This document shows positions 27,009 through 36,805 of a stretch of DNA of 64,000 nt, piece by piece. The DNA comes from Tepidimonas ignava (lineage in GTDB: Bacteria; Pseudomonadota; Gammaproteobacteria; Burkholderiales; Burkholderiaceae_C). Positions within the stretch are counted from its first letter, which is position 1, and each line of letters starts with the position of its first letter. The translations under genes were made by a program, and so were the position numbers. Below the pieces are notes generated by a model. It saw nothing but the letters and a program-made list of their open reading frames with translations, did no database searches and was not told where the DNA came from. Location of the stretch: positions 186,001 to 250,000 of the forward strand of contig NZ_SMAH01000002.1 in the NCBI RefSeq assembly GCF_004342625.1, in the 5' to 3' direction.

Positions 27009-29414
<2,406 letters not shown>

Positions 29415-29508
29415 CGCGGGCCGTAGCATAACGGCTGACGCGGTGGGATCGGCGGGGCGCACGCGCGTGCCACAATGCCGGGTGTTGCACCGCCACCCCC
29501 ACCTTGTG

Positions 29509-29895
29509 ATGACCCGACCACCCGAGCCCCCCCCAAAGCGGCACGGCGTGCTGCGCCTGTGGCACGCGCTGCGCTACTCGTGGGACGGCCTGCGCGCCGG
29601 CTGGCGCGAGCCCGCCCTGCGCCAGGAGTTGGTGCTGGGCGCCGTGCTGCTGCCGGCGGCGTGGTGGGTGGGGCGCGACGCCGTGCACGTGGCGCTGCTG
29701 GCGCTCAGCGTCGTCGCGGTGTGGGTGGTGGAGCTGCTCAACACCGCGGTGGAGTCGGTGGTGGATCGCATCGGCCCCGAGTGGCACCCACTGGCCAAGC
29801 GCGCCAAGGACATGGGCAGCGCCGCGGTGCTGCTGACGCTGCTGGCCAGCGGCGGCCTGTGGGCCTGGAGCCTGTGGGCCTGGTGGCGCGGCTGA
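29509..29895 (+). CDS. dgkA: Diacylglycerol kinase
   Basis: Small integral-membrane kinase, 128 aa, phosphorylating diacylglycerol to phosphatidic acid. Three hydrophobic helices and the family signature are present: [33 protein letters not shown] and [17 protein letters not shown], containing the catalytic Glu residues. ATG 29509 follows an in-frame GTG (29506). It converges with eptA 46 bases away. EptA-type enzymes release diacylglycerol from phosphatidylethanolamine, so this kinase is a natural recycling partner. Confidence 0.94.
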
Positions 29896-29941
29896 CGCGA
29901 CCGCGCCTGCACGTCGTGCACCGCGGCGACGCGTCGTCGGT

Positions 29942-31609
29942 TCAGCCGCGGCGGCACGTGCGCAACAGGTCGCGCTCGGCGTCGTAAACGCGCGTGCGCA
30001 CCCCGAGCAACCCGGCCACCGTGTGGAACAGATGGTCGTGCGACGCCGGTTCGGCCGCGCGCCGCTGCAAGCACGCCATGTCGAGCTGCAGGCGCTGGCG
30101 CATCGTGCCATTGAGCCACAGCGCCATGGGCACGTGCGTTTGCTCGCGCGGCGCCAGCGCGTACGGCATGCCATGCAGGTACAGGCCGCCCTCGCCCAGC
30201 GATTCGCCGTGGTCCGACACGTACAGCAGCGCCGCCGGACCGCGCCGTTGCGCCAGCCACGCCACCAGTTCCCCCAACACATGGTCGGTGTAGGCGATCG
30301 TGTTGTCGTACGCGTTGACGATGTGCTCGCGCGGGCACGTCTGCAACTGGGCGCTGGTGCACTCGGGCTCGAAGCGCTTGAACGCCGCCGGCGTGCGCTT
30401 GTGGTACGCGGGGCCGTGGCTGCCCATCATGTGCAGCACCGCCAGCGTGCCAACACGCCGGCGCTGCGCGTCGAGCGTCTGCAGCGTACCCGGCAACTCG
30501 CGCAGCAGCACCTCGTCATGGCACTCGTCCCCGCTGCACAGGCCCGGCACCTGCAACCGGTCGGTGGCCAGCGTCGGCACACGCGCGCACACACCCTTGC
30601 AGCCGGACTGGTTGTCCAACCAGGTCACCGCCAGCCCGGCGCGTTGCACCACGTCCAGCAGGTTCTCTTGGGCGCGCGCGGGGTCGTAGCGCTGGCGCCC
30701 GTCGGGCGCGAACATGCACGGCACCGACGTCTGGGTGTTGGTGCCGCACGAGGTCGTGTCGGCAAAATACACCAGCTCGCCTGCGCGCTGCAACGCCGCC
30801 AGCCGCGGCGTGGTGTCGCGCGTGTACCCACCCAGGCTGACGTTGGCCGCGCGCGCCGTCTCGCCCACCACCAGCACCAACAGCGGGGCGTCGTCCTCCC
30901 TCGCGTGGGCCGGCAGCACCGGCACCTGATCGTCCAGCGGCTGCACGGGACCCGCCGCCAGCGCGTGTCGACCCAGGCCGTGGCGCAGCGTGGCGTATAT
31001 GCTGTTGTAGGGGTTGATCATGTAGCGCAGCGTGCGCTCGGTGCGCATCAGCGCCGCCAGATCCTGAAACGTCAGCCACAGCAGCAGCGCTGCCAGCGCC
31101 AACGCCCCCATGGCCAGCCCGCCGCGCTGCCCCAGCGCGCGCCGCCACGGGGCAGGCGCCACGGGCAGACGCCACCACAGCCAGCCGGGCAACGCCACCC
31201 CCAGCACCGCCACCACCAACAGCGCCGGCGTCACCAGATCGGCGGCTTCGCGCGCGTCGGTGTTGAAGACATTGGCCACCATCGAGCTGTCGATGACGAT
31301 GCCGTAGGCCAACATGAAGTAGCTCGGCACCGCCACCAGCGCCAGCAGCACCAACCCCAGCGGCCGCCGCAGCGGCCCCACGGCCAGCAGCGCCAGCACG
31401 GCAAGGTTGACCGCCGCCAGCGCCCCCATCCACGCCGCGGTGACCAGCCACGGCCGCCACCCGCCACCCTCCATCCTTTGCAGCACCGCCGCCCACAGCG
31501 GCACGTTGCCCACCAGGGCCATCCACAGGGCCAGCGCCACCAGCGGTTCCCAGCGCTGTCCCCCGGGCCACTTGGCGTTGCGTTCGTTGTCGTCGGTCAC
31601 ACGTGTCAT
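29942..31609 (-). CDS. eptA: Phosphoethanolamine-lipid A transferase (EptA/MCR family)
   Basis: Inner-membrane alkaline-phosphatase-superfamily enzyme, 555 aa. It moves phosphoethanolamine from phosphatidylethanolamine to lipid A phosphates and lowers affinity for polymyxins. N-terminal region with about five helices; periplasmic catalytic domain with zinc motif VGETARAANVSLGGY, nucleophile Thr in CGTNTQTSVPCMF and SDHGESLGE. Paired cysteines typical of EptA/MCR are visible (SGCKGVCARV, LCSGDECHDE, ECTSAQLQTC). Located downstream of the sensor kinase gene with a PmrA-box-like element 23 bases before its ATG, so it can be both co-transcribed and separately induced. Confidence 0.94.
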   Translation of the reverse strand: MTRVTDDNERNAKWPGGQRWEPLVALALWMALVGNVPLWAAVLQRMEGGGWRPWLVTAAWMGALAAVNLAVLALLAVGPLRRPLGLVLLALVAVPSYFMLAYGIVIDSSMVANVFNTDAREAADLVTPALLVVAVLGVALPGWLWWRLPVAPAPWRRALGQRGGLAMGALALAALLLWLTFQDLAALMRTERTLRYMINPYNSIYATLRHGLGRHALAAGPVQPLDDQVPVLPAHAREDDAPLLVLVVGETARAANVSLGGYTRDTTPRLAALQRAGELVYFADTTSCGTNTQTSVPCMFAPDGRQRYDPARAQENLLDVVQRAGLAVTWLDNQSGCKGVCARVPTLATDRLQVPGLCSGDECHDEVLLRELPGTLQTLDAQRRRVGTLAVLHMMGSHGPAYHKRTPAAFKRFEPECTSAQLQTCPREHIVNAYDNTIAYTDHVLGELVAWLAQRRGPAALLYVSDHGESLGEGGLYLHGMPYALAPREQTHVPMALWLNGTMRQRLQLDMACLQRRAAEPASHDHLFHTVAGLLGVRTRVYDAERDLLRTCRRG

Positions 31610-31632
31610 GGCCCTGATCGTGCCAGGCCGCC

Positions 31633-31649
31633 CTTAGCACAACCTTAAG
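31633..31649 (-). promoter_or_regulatory. PmrA-box-like element before eptA
   Basis: Read on the minus strand: CTTAAG-GTTGT-GCTAAG, two half-sites with 11-bp periodicity; the first is a perfect match to the known PmrA half-site (C/T)TTAAG and the second matches 4 of 6. Ten bases downstream is a possible -10 (CACGAT), then seven bases, then the eptA ATG. The element overlaps the kinase stop codon. The activator-to-minus-10 distance of 10 bp is that of class II OmpR/PhoB-type promoters. Confidence 0.6.
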
Positions 31650-32979
31650 CCGCCGGCCAGCGCAGTTGGTACGCGGTACGCCAGGGCGGGGGCGGACCCA
31701 GCCGCTCCAGGCGCGCGCCCTCGTGTTCGGCGATGCGTTGCACCAGCGTCAGCCCCACCCCGAGCCCGCCGCGGTCCGCTGCGCGGGTCTCGGCAGCGGT
31801 GGTTGCGCCGCCGTCGTCCAACACTTGGCACACCACGTCGCCATCGGGCTGACGCTGCACCCGTACGGCCACGCGGGTGCCGGGCGGGTTGTGGCGCAGC
31901 GCGTTGTCGAGCAGGTTGCGCAACGCCAGCCGCAGCAGGGTCGGCCGCGCCGTCACAAGCAGCGCGTCGCCCTGCACCTCGGGCACCGGTCGCGGCGGGT
32001 CGAACACTGCGGCGCACGCCTGGGCCACCTCCCGCGCCAGGGCCAGCAGCTCCACCGGCTCGGGCGGCTGCGCGCCGGGCGCGTCGGCGCGCGCCAGCGC
32101 CAGCAACTGGGTCAGGGTGTCGCCGGCGCGCAACGCCTCGTGCTCCAACGCCAGCAGCGCCTGCTGCGCCGTTGCGCTGCCGGGCTGCGTACGCACCAAC
32201 CGTGCCTGCCAAACGATGGCGGTCAGCGGCGAGCGCAGCTCGTGCGCCACGTCGGCGGTGAAACGCCGCTCACGTTGCCACAGGGCGTGCAGCCGCTGCA
32301 CCAACGCGTGCAACGCGGCGCGCACCCGCTCCAGCTCCGAATAGCGTTGCTGGGGCGGCAGCCCTTGGCCCGTGTCGGGGTCAAAGCGCTGCAGCGCACG
32401 CGCCAGCTCGCCCAGCGGCGCCAGCCCGCGGCGCAGCGCCCAGGCCAGCAGCAGCGCCAGCAGCGGCAGCAACACCAGCGCCGGGCGCACGATGTGCTCG
32501 GCGATGTCGCGCCCCAAGGCGGCGTGGCGGCGCGTGTCCACCCCCACGGCCACCCGACGCCCACCGGTGTCCAGCACGTACCAACGCCAGGTGGCCAGCG
32601 TGCCCTGGTGCGCTACCACCACCGTGTGCCAGCCCACGGCGTCATGCAGGGGCAGCCGGTCGGCCCAACCGCCGGGATCCCAACGCACCTGGCCGTGCTC
32701 CCACACCACGGCGTGCAGCGTGGGCGCGTAGCGCGCGGCGCCCTGGTGCGGCGGCGGCAGGGACGCGGGCGCCTGCGCCGGCGTTGGCAGCGGGAGGGTC
32801 GCCAGCAAGCGTGCCACCGATTGCAGCTGGCCGTCGGTGATCTCCTCGACCTCGTGCACCCCGGTGTAGTAGGCGCTGGCCATCAGCGCGAGCCACACCG
32901 CCACCAGCGCCGCCAGTGTGAACGCCCACAGGCGCCGCCACAGGCGCGCTGCCGGGGGACGCGGCTGCCCTGCCCTCAT
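31645..32979 (-). CDS. Sensor histidine kinase, PmrB/BasS-like
   Basis: Two-component membrane sensor, 444 aa. Two transmembrane helices (about 14-38 and 165-187) flank a periplasmic region of roughly 125 residues that begins with HEVEEITD, containing an ExxE pattern like the metal-sensing motif in PmrB. HAMP-like linker, then the phosphorylated His in FTADVAHELRSPLTA, N box NLLDNALRHNPPG and G box GGLGVGLTLVQRIAEHEG. Its ATG overlaps the regulator stop (ATGA), so the pair is translationally coupled. The adjacent eptA makes a PmrAB-type role likely; the signal is unknown. Confidence 0.9.
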   Translation of the reverse strand: MRAGQPRPPAARLWRRLWAFTLAALVAVWLALMASAYYTGVHEVEEITDGQLQSVARLLATLPLPTPAQAPASLPPPHQGAARYAPTLHAVVWEHGQVRWDPGGWADRLPLHDAVGWHTVVVAHQGTLATWRWYVLDTGGRRVAVGVDTRRHAALGRDIAEHIVRPALVLLPLLALLLAWALRRGLAPLGELARALQRFDPDTGQGLPPQQRYSELERVRAALHALVQRLHALWQRERRFTADVAHELRSPLTAIVWQARLVRTQPGSATAQQALLALEHEALRAGDTLTQLLALARADAPGAQPPEPVELLALAREVAQACAAVFDPPRPVPEVQGDALLVTARPTLLRLALRNLLDNALRHNPPGTRVAVRVQRQPDGDVVCQVLDDGGATTAAETRAADRGGLGVGLTLVQRIAEHEGARLERLGPPPPWRTAYQLRWPAA

Positions 32980-33644
32980 GGCGACGGCGGCGCCGGGATG
33001 GTGTAGCCAACGCCGCGCACGGTCTGGATCAGCGTGCTGCCCAGTTTGCGGCGCAGGTGGTGGATGTGAACTTCAAGCGCGTTGCTCTCCACCACCTCGT
33101 CAAAGCCGTACAGGGTGCTTTCGAGCTGCGCGCGCGTCAGCACCCGACCGCGCGCGCGCAGCAGCGCCCACAGCAACGCGAACTCCTTGGTGCCCAGGGT
33201 GACCGGCTGACCGTCCAACGTCACGGTGCGCCGCGCCGGATCGACCCGCAGCGCACCGTGTTCGAGCAGACCTCCCGCCTCGCCCCCACTGCGCCGCAGC
33301 GCCACCCGCAGACGCGCCAGCAGCTCCTCGGGCGCAAACGGCTTGACCAAGTAATCGTCAGCGCCGCTGTCAAGCCCAGCCACGCGTTCGGGCACGGCGT
33401 CACGGGCGGTCACGATCAGCACCGGCGTGCGCCACCCCGCGGCCCGCCGTGCTCGCAACCACGCCACACCGTCCCCGTCGGGCAACCCCAGATCCAGCAG
33501 CACGGCGTCAAACGGTTCGGCGTCGACGGCGGCCGAGGCGCAGGCCAGCGTCGCGCAGACATCGCAAGCGTGGCCTTGGGCGCGCAGCAGCGCCGCCACC
33601 GCCCCGGCGATGGCGGCATCGTCCTCGATCAGCAACAAGCGCAT
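32976..33644 (-). CDS. OmpR/PhoB-type response regulator, PmrA/BasR-like
   Basis: Response regulator of 222 aa: receiver domain with acidic pocket LLLIEDD, phospho-accepting Asp in DAVLLDLGLPDGDG (about residue 51), conserved Thr/Lys (IVTARD, DDYLVKPF), then a winged-helix DNA-binding domain with NALEVHIHHLRRKLG and TVRGVGYTI. The start is fixed by the canonical MRLLLIEDD. A PmrA-box-like element lies 14 bases upstream but is spaced for the divergent PAP2 gene rather than for this one. Confidence 0.92.
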   Translation of the reverse strand: MRLLLIEDDAAIAGAVAALLRAQGHACDVCATLACASAAVDAEPFDAVLLDLGLPDGDGVAWLRARRAAGWRTPVLIVTARDAVPERVAGLDSGADDYLVKPFAPEELLARLRVALRRSGGEAGGLLEHGALRVDPARRTVTLDGQPVTLGTKEFALLWALLRARGRVLTRAQLESTLYGFDEVVESNALEVHIHHLRRKLGSTLIQTVRGVGYTIPAPPSP

Positions 33645-33658
33645 CGGCCTGCCCCACG

Positions 33659-33675
33659 GTTAAGGCTGTCTTAAG
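33659..33675 (+). promoter_or_regulatory. PmrA-box-like element before the PAP2 gene
   Basis: Read on the plus strand: GTTAAG-GCTGT-CTTAAG, two half-sites matching (C/T)TTAAG at 5 of 6 and 6 of 6 with a 5-bp spacer. Ten bases later is TGTACT (33686-33691), then seven bases to the PAP2 ATG. The box-to-ATG distance, 23 bases, is identical to that at eptA. In the opposite direction the regulator ATG is only 14 bases away, too close for the same promoter geometry. Confidence 0.65.
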
Positions 33676-33698
33676 GCCACCGCAGTGTACTGCGCGCC

Positions 33699-34424
33699 AT
33701 GCCCGACACTCGCCTTCCTTCGGTCCGAACGCTGCTGTGGCTGACAGCGCTGCTGTGGGCCGTGGCGTTGGCCTGGGACGCCACCGGCAGGGACCTGGCG
33801 GTGATGCAGCGCCTGGGCGACGCCCAGGGTTTTGCCCTGCGTGACGCGCCGCTGTGGCGACACTGGGGTCACGACGTGGCACAGCAACTGGCCCGGGTGA
33901 TGCTGGCGCTGCTGTGGCTGGCCGCCTTGCTGCCATGGACGGTGCCGCGCACGCGCGCCCGGGTGTGGGGCCGCCAGGCGCTGCAAGCGGCGCTGGGCGC
34001 CACCCTGGCGCTGCTGTTGATCGGTTGGCTCAAGCACCGCAGCCTGACCAGTTGCCCGTGGGATCTGGAGCTGTTCGGTGGCACGGCGCGTTACGTTTCG
34101 CATTGGCAATGGGGCATGCCCGACGGCGGCGGTGCGCGCTGCTTTCCGGGCGGGCACGTGGCGTCGGCGGCGATTTTTTGGTCGTTGGCGCTGGTGCCGC
34201 GCTCGCCGCGCGCCCGTCGCGCGCTGTGGCTGCTGGTGGCGTTGCTGGCCTTGGCCTTCGGCGCCGTGCAAACGCTGCGCGGCGCGCACTACCCCAGCCA
34301 CACCTTGTGGACGATGGCGCTGGCGTGGACCGTGGTCGTGGCGCACCACGCCGCCTGGCGTCGTTGGGTGCGCGCCCACGCGCTCGGCGTGGCTCAGATA
34401 TCCACCTCCACCGCGTCGCCGTAG
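33699..34424 (+). CDS. PAP2 family phosphatase, probable lipid phosphatase
   Basis: Integral-membrane acid phosphatase-like protein, 241 aa, about six helices. The phosphatase motifs are present in variant form: KHRSLTSCPWDLELFGG (motif 1, Cys-Pro in place of Arg-Pro), CFPGGHVASAA (motif 2, equivalent to PSGH) and RGAHYPSHTLWTM (motif 3). This KxxSxxxCPW variant resembles PAP2 proteins that accompany eptA/mcr genes. Likely substrates are lipid A phosphates, undecaprenyl diphosphate or phosphatidate; it cannot be decided here. Its tail overlaps the parE end by 31 bases. Confidence 0.88.
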   Translation: MPDTRLPSVRTLLWLTALLWAVALAWDATGRDLAVMQRLGDAQGFALRDAPLWRHWGHDVAQQLARVMLALLWLAALLPWTVPRTRARVWGRQALQAALGATLALLLIGWLKHRSLTSCPWDLELFGGTARYVSHWQWGMPDGGGARCFPGGHVASAAIFWSLALVPRSPRARRALWLLVALLALAFGAVQTLRGAHYPSHTLWTMALAWTVVVAHHAAWRRWVRAHALGVAQISTSTASP

Positions 34425-36370
34425 CGCTCCAGCAGCTCGCGCCGCGCGGCGGCCTCGCCTTTGCCCATCAACTGGTGCAACCGGGCCTCGGTGGCGGCGC
34501 GGTCGCGCAACGTCACCGGCAGCAAACGGCGCGTGTCGGGGTTGAGCGTGGTTTCCCACAGTTGCTCGGCGCTCATCTCACCCAGCCCCTTGAAGCGGCT
34601 GATCGTGCAGCGCTCGCGCGCCACACCGTCTTGCGCGCATTTGTCCAAGATGGCCTGCAGCTCGCCCTCGTCCAGCGCGTACAGCTTGGCCGGCGGGCGC
34701 TTGCCACGCGCTGGCACGTCCACCCGGTACAGCGGCGGGCGGGCCACGTACAGGTGCCCGCGCTCGATCAGGCGTGGAAAGTGGCGGAAAAACAGCGTCA
34801 GCAGCAACACCTGGATGTGCGCCCCGTCGACGTCGGCGTCGCTCAGGATGCACACCTTGCCATAGCGCAGCCCGCTCAAGTCCACCGCATCGTCGGGGCC
34901 GTGCGGGTCGATCCCGATGGCCACCGCGATGTCGTGCACCTCCTGGTTGGCGTAGAGCCGCTCGCGCTCCACTTCCCAGGTGTTGAGCACCTTGCCGCGC
35001 AGCGGCAGCACCGCCTGAAAGGTCTTGTCGCGCCCCATTTTGGCGCTGCCGCCGGCGCTGTCGCCCTCCACCAAAAAAAGCTCGTTGCGCGTGGTGTCGC
35101 GGCTTTCGCAGTCGGTCAGTTTGCCTGGCAGCACCGCCACGCCGCTGCCTTTGCGCTTTTCCAGCTTGACGCTGGCGCGCTGGCGGCTTTGCGCGCTGCG
35201 GATGACCAGCTCGGCCAGCCGCTTGCCGTGCTCCACGTGCTGGTGCAACCACAGCTCCAACGCGGGGCGCACGTAGCTGGCCACCAACCGCACGGCGTCG
35301 CGCGAGTTCAGGCGTTCTTTGGTCTGCCCCTGGAACTGCGGATCGAGCACCTTGGCGCTGAGCACGAAGCTGGCGCGCGCAAACACGTCTTCCGGCAGCA
35401 CCTTGACGCCTTTGGGCAGCAGCGCGTGCAGCTCGATGAACCCCCGCACGGCCTGAAACAGCCCCTCGCGCAGGCCGCTTTCGTGGGTGCCGCCGGCGGT
35501 GGTGGGGATCAGGTTGACGTAGCTCTCGCGCACCAGCGGGCCCTCTTCGGTGAACGCCACGGCCCACTGCGCGCCTTCGCCTTCGGCAAAGGCATCGTGC
35601 CCCGCCTCGGCCCAGCCTTCACCGGTGAAGATGGGCAGCAGTGGCTCGCAAGGCAAGCGTTGCGCCAGGTAGTCGGCCAGGCCGCCCTTGTACTGCCAGG
35701 TCTGGCGCTGACCGCTGGTTTCATCGATCAGCGTCACGCTCACCCCCGGCAGCAGCACCGCCTTGCTGCGCAGCAGGTGCGCCAGCTCCGCCCGCGGGAT
35801 CTCGGCGCTGTCAAAGTAACGCGCGTCGGGCCACACCCGCACCGTGGTGCCCTGGCGCCGCTCGCCCGCGGCCAGCGGCCGGCGCTGCAACGGCTGCACC
35901 ACGTCGCCCCCGGCAAAGGCCATCGTCGCCACATGGCCGTCGCGGTGGCTGGCCACCTCCAGCCGCCGCGACAGGGCGTTGGTCACGCTCACCCCCACGC
36001 CATGCAACCCGCCGGCAAAGTTGTAGGCGCCCCCGTGCCCCTTGTCGAACTTGCCGCCGGCGTGCAAGCGGGTGAAGACCAGCTCCAGCACCGGCGCGCC
36101 CTCCTCGGGGTGCACGCCGTGCGGTATCCCGCGCCCGTCGTCTTCAACGCTGATCGAGCCGTCGCTGTGCAACGTGACGACGATGCGCCGTCCGTGGCCG
36201 GCCAGGGCCTCGTCGGCGGCGTTGTCGATCACCTCCTGCACGATGTGCAGCGGATGGTCGGTGCGCGTGTACATGCCGGGCCGCTGCTTGACGGGCTCCA
36301 GCCCCTTGAGCACCCGAATGGCGGCCTCGGCATAGCCCGTGGAGGCAACGGTGGGGGTGGTGTCGACCAT
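34394..36370 (-). CDS. parE: DNA topoisomerase IV subunit B
   Basis: ATPase subunit of topoisomerase IV, 658 aa. GHKL ATPase motifs are seen: EVIDNAADEALAGHG, VEDDGRGIPHGVH and GGLHGVGVSVTNAL. The TOPRIM domain follows with LVEGDSAGGSAKMGRD and LSDADVDGAHIQ, and the C-terminus ends with RFKGLGEMSAEQLWETTLNP. ATG 36370 (MVDTTP) is used rather than the longer frame. It lacks the insertion that distinguishes GyrB in many proteobacteria, and the parC partner lies downstream on the same strand. Confidence 0.95.
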   Translation of the reverse strand: MVDTTPTVASTGYAEAAIRVLKGLEPVKQRPGMYTRTDHPLHIVQEVIDNAADEALAGHGRRIVVTLHSDGSISVEDDGRGIPHGVHPEEGAPVLELVFTRLHAGGKFDKGHGGAYNFAGGLHGVGVSVTNALSRRLEVASHRDGHVATMAFAGGDVVQPLQRRPLAAGERRQGTTVRVWPDARYFDSAEIPRAELAHLLRSKAVLLPGVSVTLIDETSGQRQTWQYKGGLADYLAQRLPCEPLLPIFTGEGWAEAGHDAFAEGEGAQWAVAFTEEGPLVRESYVNLIPTTAGGTHESGLREGLFQAVRGFIELHALLPKGVKVLPEDVFARASFVLSAKVLDPQFQGQTKERLNSRDAVRLVASYVRPALELWLHQHVEHGKRLAELVIRSAQSRQRASVKLEKRKGSGVAVLPGKLTDCESRDTTRNELFLVEGDSAGGSAKMGRDKTFQAVLPLRGKVLNTWEVERERLYANQEVHDIAVAIGIDPHGPDDAVDLSGLRYGKVCILSDADVDGAHIQVLLLTLFFRHFPRLIERGHLYVARPPLYRVDVPARGKRPPAKLYALDEGELQAILDKCAQDGVARERCTISRFKGLGEMSAEQLWETTLNPDTRRLLPVTLRDRAATEARLHQLMGKGEAAARRELLERYGDAVEVDI

Positions 36371-36805
36371 GGCGCGCGATTGTATTGTGCACACCCGACG
36401 GGGAGGCGGGATGCGCCGCTGGCACCCGGGTCATCCCCCTTGGTTGCAGCGCAACGCACTGCGAAAACACCACAACATATTGTTTTTACACACCATTTTT
36501 ACTGCTCAAAAAATAGGCAATCTGTTGCAAGGCTTGTGCGGCGCGGCTTGGCCCGCGATGACCACGGGTTGCCCACAATGTTATCCACAGGCGCGCGGGA
36601 TAACGGCCACAGCCCCTTGTGGTTCAATGGGTTGCCACACAACGTGCACGCCCCATGTCAACGGGTGCCGGCAACATCAACCGTCCGCCGCCATGGCTGG
36701 CCCAGCCGCGTTGGCGGCCGACGCCAACACCCGCCGCCAAGGCGCCGCACCCCGCAAGCCCCCCTCGCCCACCATCACGGCCCCGCTTGGGCTACCATCA
36801 CGGGC
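36371..36805. other. 435-base intergenic region with AT-rich patch and DnaA-box-like site
   Basis: Divergent region between parE and an MFS gene; no credible coding sequence. It contains the most AT-rich patch in the window (about 36466-36530). A perfect DnaA-box consensus TTATCCACA is at 36581-36589, forming part of an inverted repeat (GTTATCC 36580-36586, GGATAAC 36598-36604), and a CCACA/TGTGG hairpin is at 36607-36622. Only one consensus DnaA box is present and no dnaA or dnaN is nearby, so this is more likely a regulated promoter region than a replication origin. A TACCAT hexamer at 36793-36798 lies 7 bases before the MFS start. Confidence 0.5.

Follow-up and report, generated by a model that had tools for sequence, protein, structure and literature searches.

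The analyzed window, a stretch of 64,000 nucleotides from Tepidimonas ignava, contains two genes, eptA and a gene for a PAP2-family membrane phosphatase, that are preceded by PmrA-type boxes with identical promoter geometry. We consider it likely that both boxes are sites of the neighbouring OmpR/PhoB-type response regulator (RR), that this regulator activates both promoters in a class II manner, and that the resulting mRNAs are leaderless; all three parts of this proposal are predicted from the sequence. The term PmrA box is used here as a label for the sequence, not for a regulator identified by experiment.

Gene cluster and promoter geometry

The two genes belong to a cluster that also encodes a sensor histidine kinase (HK) and DgkA (Table 1) and is flanked as a whole by parC and parE (27009-36394). 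EptA exceeds the cut-off of its identity model, and the PAP2 protein is a member of the PAP2 superfamily; the score of the latter against the lipid A phosphatase model NF028538 is 70 bits, below the cut-off of 275. The dgkA gene occupies the same position in other Tepidimonas, and the sister Tepidimonas have the gene order parE-RR-HK-eptA-dgkA-parC with no PAP2 gene. This PAP2-less order was observed in T. sediminis, T. alkaliphilus, and a Hydrogenophaga-like MAG, suggesting that the PAP2 gene was either gained here or lost there. No relative of the PAP2 gene was found in the 10 other Tepidimonas genomes searched, and its promoter was compared with those of other genera.

Table 1. Features of the eptA-PAP2 cluster (positions in the window)
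Feature	Position	Strand	Description
dgkA, diacylglycerol kinase	29509..29895	+	PF01219; convergent with eptA
eptA, phosphoethanolamine--lipid A transferase	29942..31609	-	NF028537, 520.7 bits (cut-off 500); Sulfatase and EptA_B_N
eptA, predicted TSS (leaderless)	31609	-	A of ATG; 7-bp gap after the -10 hexamer, with family-wide statistics
eptA, gap between -10 and ATG		-	CAGGGCC, 7 bp; read directly
eptA, predicted -10 hexamer	31617..31622	-	CACGAT; 10 bp past box; fits YANNNT
eptA, gap between box and -10		-	GGCGGCCTGG, 10 bp; read directly
eptA box	31633..31649	-	CTTAAG-GTTGT-GCTAAG; PmrA-type direct repeat; read directly
HK, sensor histidine kinase, QseC/PmrB-like	31645..32979	-	QseC 141 bits, PmrB 105 bits, both below cut-off
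RR, OmpR/PhoB-type response regulator, PmrA/QseB-like	32976..33644	-	ATG 14 bp from PAP2/RR box
PAP2 box	33659..33675	+	GTTAAG-GCTGT-CTTAAG; PmrA-type direct repeat between divergent PAP2 and RR genes
PAP2, gap between box and -10		+	GCCACCGCAG, 10 bp; read directly
PAP2, predicted -10 hexamer	33686..33691	+	TGTACT; 10 bp past box; atypical second base
PAP2, gap between -10 and ATG		+	GCGCGCC, 7 bp; read directly
PAP2, predicted TSS (leaderless)	33699	+	A of ATG; from family-wide comparison
PAP2-family membrane phosphatase	33699..34424	+	PF01569

Each box is a direct repeat of two TTAAG-like half-sites with an 11-bp period. The PAP2 box is perfect, and its half-sites are near-palindromic, the minus strand reading CTTAAG-N5-CTTAAC; the eptA box departs from the core at one base (GCTAAG), overlaps the end of the HK gene and contains its stop codon TAA. 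A previous sequence-only reading had described both boxes, both 10-bp gaps to the -10 hexamer, both 7-bp gaps to the ATG, and the total of 23 bp, and these were confirmed to the base. The 10-bp distance is that of class II promoters of OmpR/PhoB-type regulators, and the only deviation in the hexamers concerns the PAP2 gene, where TGTACT is without the usual A at position 2. In PhoB class II promoters, the box replaces the -35 element and ends 10 bp before the -10 hexamer; the promoters described here share this geometry but differ in half-site sequence, in their targets, and in being predicted as leaderless. Bacterial transcripts start ~7 bp past the -10 hexamer. Since both start codons lie at this position, 6-8 bp past the hexamer with no Shine-Dalgarno (SD) sequence, the mRNAs are predicted to be leaderless, a consequence that the sequence-only reading had missed although 23 bp between box and ATG leave no space for a leader.

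In the proposed mechanism, the phosphorylated PmrA/QseB-like RR would bind each box as a head-to-tail dimer and replace the -35 element, giving class II, PhoB-like activation from the -10 hexamer located 10 bp downstream. With only 6-8 bp between this hexamer and the start codon, RNA polymerase would initiate on the start codon or about one base away, and the leaderless eptA and PAP2 mRNAs would be translated without an SD sequence. RR may thereby switch on lipid A phosphoethanolamine transfer together with its putative PAP2 partner.

Conservation of box-to-start spacing

The strict pattern STTAAG-N5-CTTAAG occurs once in the 2.7-Mb genome, at the PAP2/RR box. The looser pattern TTMAG-N6-TTMAG with at most one mismatch has 54 genomic sites versus 60 for the reversed pattern, thus the box alone is not enriched, and one-mismatch boxes have a frequency of about one per 100 kb and strand. 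A given gene has a chance of ~0.001 of carrying a looser box in the 100 bp upstream of it, and both eptA and the PAP2 gene have one, at equal distance. As the box by itself is no commoner than its reversed control, the case rests on the relatives.

The PAP2 and eptA loci compared came from ~160 genomes, most of which belong to the family of T. ignava. Among them we identified 133 distinct promoters (90 PAP2 and 43 eptA) with a box, defined as TT(A/C)AG-N6-TT(A/C)AG and allowing one mismatch. A YANNNT hexamer is located exactly 10 bp past the box in 79 of the 133 promoters, other offsets reaching ~2%, near chance, which supports the earlier assignment of class II geometry; the direct repeats at PmrA-type spacing are supported as well. 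The sequence-only reading had itself named as a test whether related genomes retain the half-sites and their spacing, and the prediction held. An in-frame start codon 22-24 bp past the box is present in 60 of 90 PAP2 promoters (p 8e-56) and 31 of 43 eptA promoters (p 2e-33) against a background of 4-5%, with p values that are nominal because the sequences are related. When the three frames are compared, the in-frame codon at 22-24 bp is a start codon, mostly ATG, in 92 of 133 cases versus 5 of 266 for the two out-of-frame positions. By these counts, the matching geometry is not due to chance. This arrangement spans about 42 genera. In the aligned promoters, the variation between 22, 23, and 24 bp resides in the gap between the -10 hexamer and the start codon, and the last T of the hexamer is present in 90-100% of PAP2 and eptA promoters of class A. 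Typical transcription starts combine a pyrimidine at -1 with a purine at +1, and C predominates immediately before the start codon in the 23- and 24-bp classes, which fits a TSS at the start codon. Measured to the position that is homologous with the T. ignava start, the distance from the box varies widely (SD 24-31 nt) because the N-termini differ in length, while the box-to-start distance is fixed; by this comparison, the start codon goes with the box and not with the protein N-terminus.

In about one third of the boxed family loci, no start codon falls at 22-24 bp, and a leader is probable there. Such loci, together with the frequent occurrence in other families of an ATG 26-36 bp past the -10 hexamer with an SD sequence, and with a GTG at codon 4 of the T. 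ignava eptA gene, are what would be expected if the class II sites were real but translation started further downstream or the TSS lay upstream. We regard such leadered transcription of eptA and the PAP2 gene as improbable, since it gives no reason for the excess of in-frame starts and since SD motifs are absent; moreover, ATG 33699 is the sole start codon of the PAP2 ORF within 80 bp of the box. SD-like motifs occur in 8% of class A promoters, about the level of shuffled sequences. Starts of control ORFs at their first ATG were dropped as an SD control because they were too noisy, and the leadered class was used instead: an SD-like tetramer is present in 2 of 29 leaderless-type matches versus 14 of 22 leadered-type matches in other families (p 3e-5).

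These two classes were defined by whole-genome searches for a box and its -10 hexamer followed by an ATG either 6-8 bp later (leaderless pattern) or 26-36 bp later (leadered pattern). In 300 genomes of the family, the leaderless pattern was found at 49 places in 46 genomes (reversed control, 1) and the leadered pattern in 47 genomes (control matches in 4). An order-level set of 250 genomes, nearly all from other families, yielded the leaderless pattern in 20 genomes (control matches in 4) and the leadered pattern in 74 (control matches in 7), so that simple arithmetic on genome counts gives a roughly fourfold shift towards the leaderless pattern in the family. Among the inspected ORFs of more than 60 aa behind the leaderless pattern in the family, 25 of 29 encode PAP2, EptA, or RR; outside the family, 7 of 18 matches have no real ORF. 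By these genome counts, class II spacing of 10 bp is widespread, and it is mainly this family that has the short distance to the start codon. At one locus outside the family (L307), an ORF for an ArnT-like glycosyltransferase, named by eye, starts 7 bp past a box-linked -10 hexamer and is a possible leaderless target.

The eptA promoter has to be considered in its operon context. The gene lies only 35 bp behind the HK gene on the same strand, which makes cotranscription with HK possible, and its box overlaps the HK stop codon and carries the core mismatch that brings it into the class expected once per 100 kb and strand. Nevertheless, it seems rather unlikely that eptA is transcribed mainly from an RR-HK-eptA operon and that the box is a relic or a chance match. 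The box and 24 bp to the ATG are kept in T. sediminis (L053; CTTAAGGCTGCGCTAAG) and T. alkaliphilus (L078; CTTAAGGCCGCGCTAAT), and box and spacing also in the Hydrogenophaga-like MAG, despite kinase identities of only 59-64%; the same geometry precedes eptA in different gene contexts of other genera, and eptA has no SD sequence that would serve a read-through transcript.

Two further observations were made in the collected loci. Three PAP2 promoters (L044, L040, and L045) contain several consecutive CTTCAG half-sites with an 11-bp period. A record titled Akkermansia muciniphila (L074) carries a Limnohabitans-like RR and eptA locus and is probably a mis-binned contig.

The neighbouring regulator and its own promoter

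RR aligns end to end with the PmrA structures 8jo2 and 4s04 and scores nearly equally against two NCBIfam models, QseB (227 bits, below the cut-off of 345) and PmrA (BasR; NF007928, 222 bits, below the cut-off of 330). The DNA-contact residues of Klebsiella PmrA have been named, and in the solved complex the -35 element lies within half-site 1 (PMC4660055). The contact residues N188, V192, H195, and R210 are kept in the T. ignava RR, N196 is replaced by His, and T187 by Ser. Residue 195, in the recognition helix, varies with the half-site: the RR neighbouring TTAAG boxes mostly has His195 (33 loci), and that neighbouring TTCAG boxes has Ser195 (35 loci); the exceptions are four more distant regulators with Ser195 and TTAAG and five loci with mixed boxes. 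Since about two changes on the RR tree explain this association, we treat it as a lead, not proof, that the neighbouring RR reads these predicted boxes. The leaderless spacing is present under both the His195 and the Ser195 regulator types. The PreA (QseB) regulon overlaps the PmrA regulon (PMC2653508); the T. ignava RR and HK resemble this system in scoring slightly better as QseB/QseC than as PmrA/PmrB, but the predicted targets here are eptA and the PAP2 gene.

The RR gene shares the PAP2 box on its other side. The sequence-only reading had noted that RR does not fit the spacing, which is correct (the ATG is 14 bp from the box, and the class II position holds GCCGAT, a poor hexamer), and had suggested from this that strong autoinduction is lacking, a suggestion that is weakened by the near-palindromic box and by the double starts of relatives. 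In 11 relatives, the RR and PAP2 starts are both located 22-24 bp from one box; the RR start in these genomes is at its usual place in five, extended by 22 residues in five, and a TTG in one. A TTG at 23 bp was considered as the start of a leaderless RR gene in T. ignava and rejected, since the protein would lose part of its first beta strand and the -10 hexamer would be GCCGAT. In the sister Tepidimonas without PAP2, a box is still present 45-50 bp before RR. Seven loci (L178, L188, L213, L228, L232, L170, and L032) have ACAAT 6-8 nt before the RR ATG and the box at 27-60 bp; RR at these loci is likely leaderless, with a differently placed box. In T. ignava, a TACACT hexamer (33684-33689, minus strand) overlaps the PAP2 -10 hexamer and is a possible -10 hexamer of RR; speculatively, this would put the box just downstream of the RR transcription start, a repressing position.

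Although OmpR/PhoB-type regulators can act as repressors and a box 14 bp from the ATG would suit repression of RR, repression of eptA and the PAP2 gene by RR covering their -35 regions is very improbable, because class II activation would call for exactly this 10-bp distance, which most relatives retain, and because eptA in enterics is activated by PmrA.

Within the preferred reading, activation with leaderless transcripts, we tentatively suggest that the regulon may be leaderless by selection, so that one near-palindromic box could fire the divergent RR and PAP2 genes and translation of the SD-less eptA would depend on its own regulated transcript, with none from HK read-through. Leaderlessness would then be part of the control and, for example, could favour translation under stress. 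A predicted activator site that fixes the start codon across about 42 genera makes start codons predictable from the box. It also allows the eptA and PAP2 gene starts of many relatives to be called or corrected, and offers a defined, inducible regulon with a link to lipid A modification for work on leaderless translation.

Comparison with known systems

The PmrA box of Salmonella and Klebsiella is a TTAAG-like direct repeat with a 5-bp gap (CTTAAT-N5-CCTAAG at pbgP) that is bound head-to-tail (PMC3973317, PMC4660055). The T. ignava system shares the repeat type, the 5-bp gap, and eptA as a (here predicted) target; however, the Klebsiella pbgP box is located at -170 from the start codon with a long leader, whereas the T. 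ignava type has 22-24 bp and no predicted leader. Leaderless mRNAs are already known in beta-proteobacteria: they account for 4.67% of the primary TSSs of Cupriavidus metallidurans (PMC7563307), and in Burkholderia cenocepacia 72 genes have their TSS exactly on the start codon (PMC4603805); in the literature searched, we found no description of a leaderless design for a PmrA-box/eptA regulon. The genes in these reports likewise have a -10 hexamer directly before the start codon and the TSS on it, but they are scattered and enriched in regulators, whereas here the predicted targets of one activator share the arrangement across genera. The radiation/desiccation response of Deinococcus is likewise a stress regulon with a conserved promoter motif, and leaderless mRNAs are also discussed in its literature; its regulator DdrO, however, is a repressor, and both the regulator and the genes are unrelated.

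The co-occurrence of a phosphoethanolamine transferase with a nearby PAP2 or dgkA gene is known from the mcr-1-hpap2 and mcr-3-dgkA units (PMC7559476, PMC10285318). Unlike these units, the T. ignava set is chromosomal and has its own two-component system and separate promoters.
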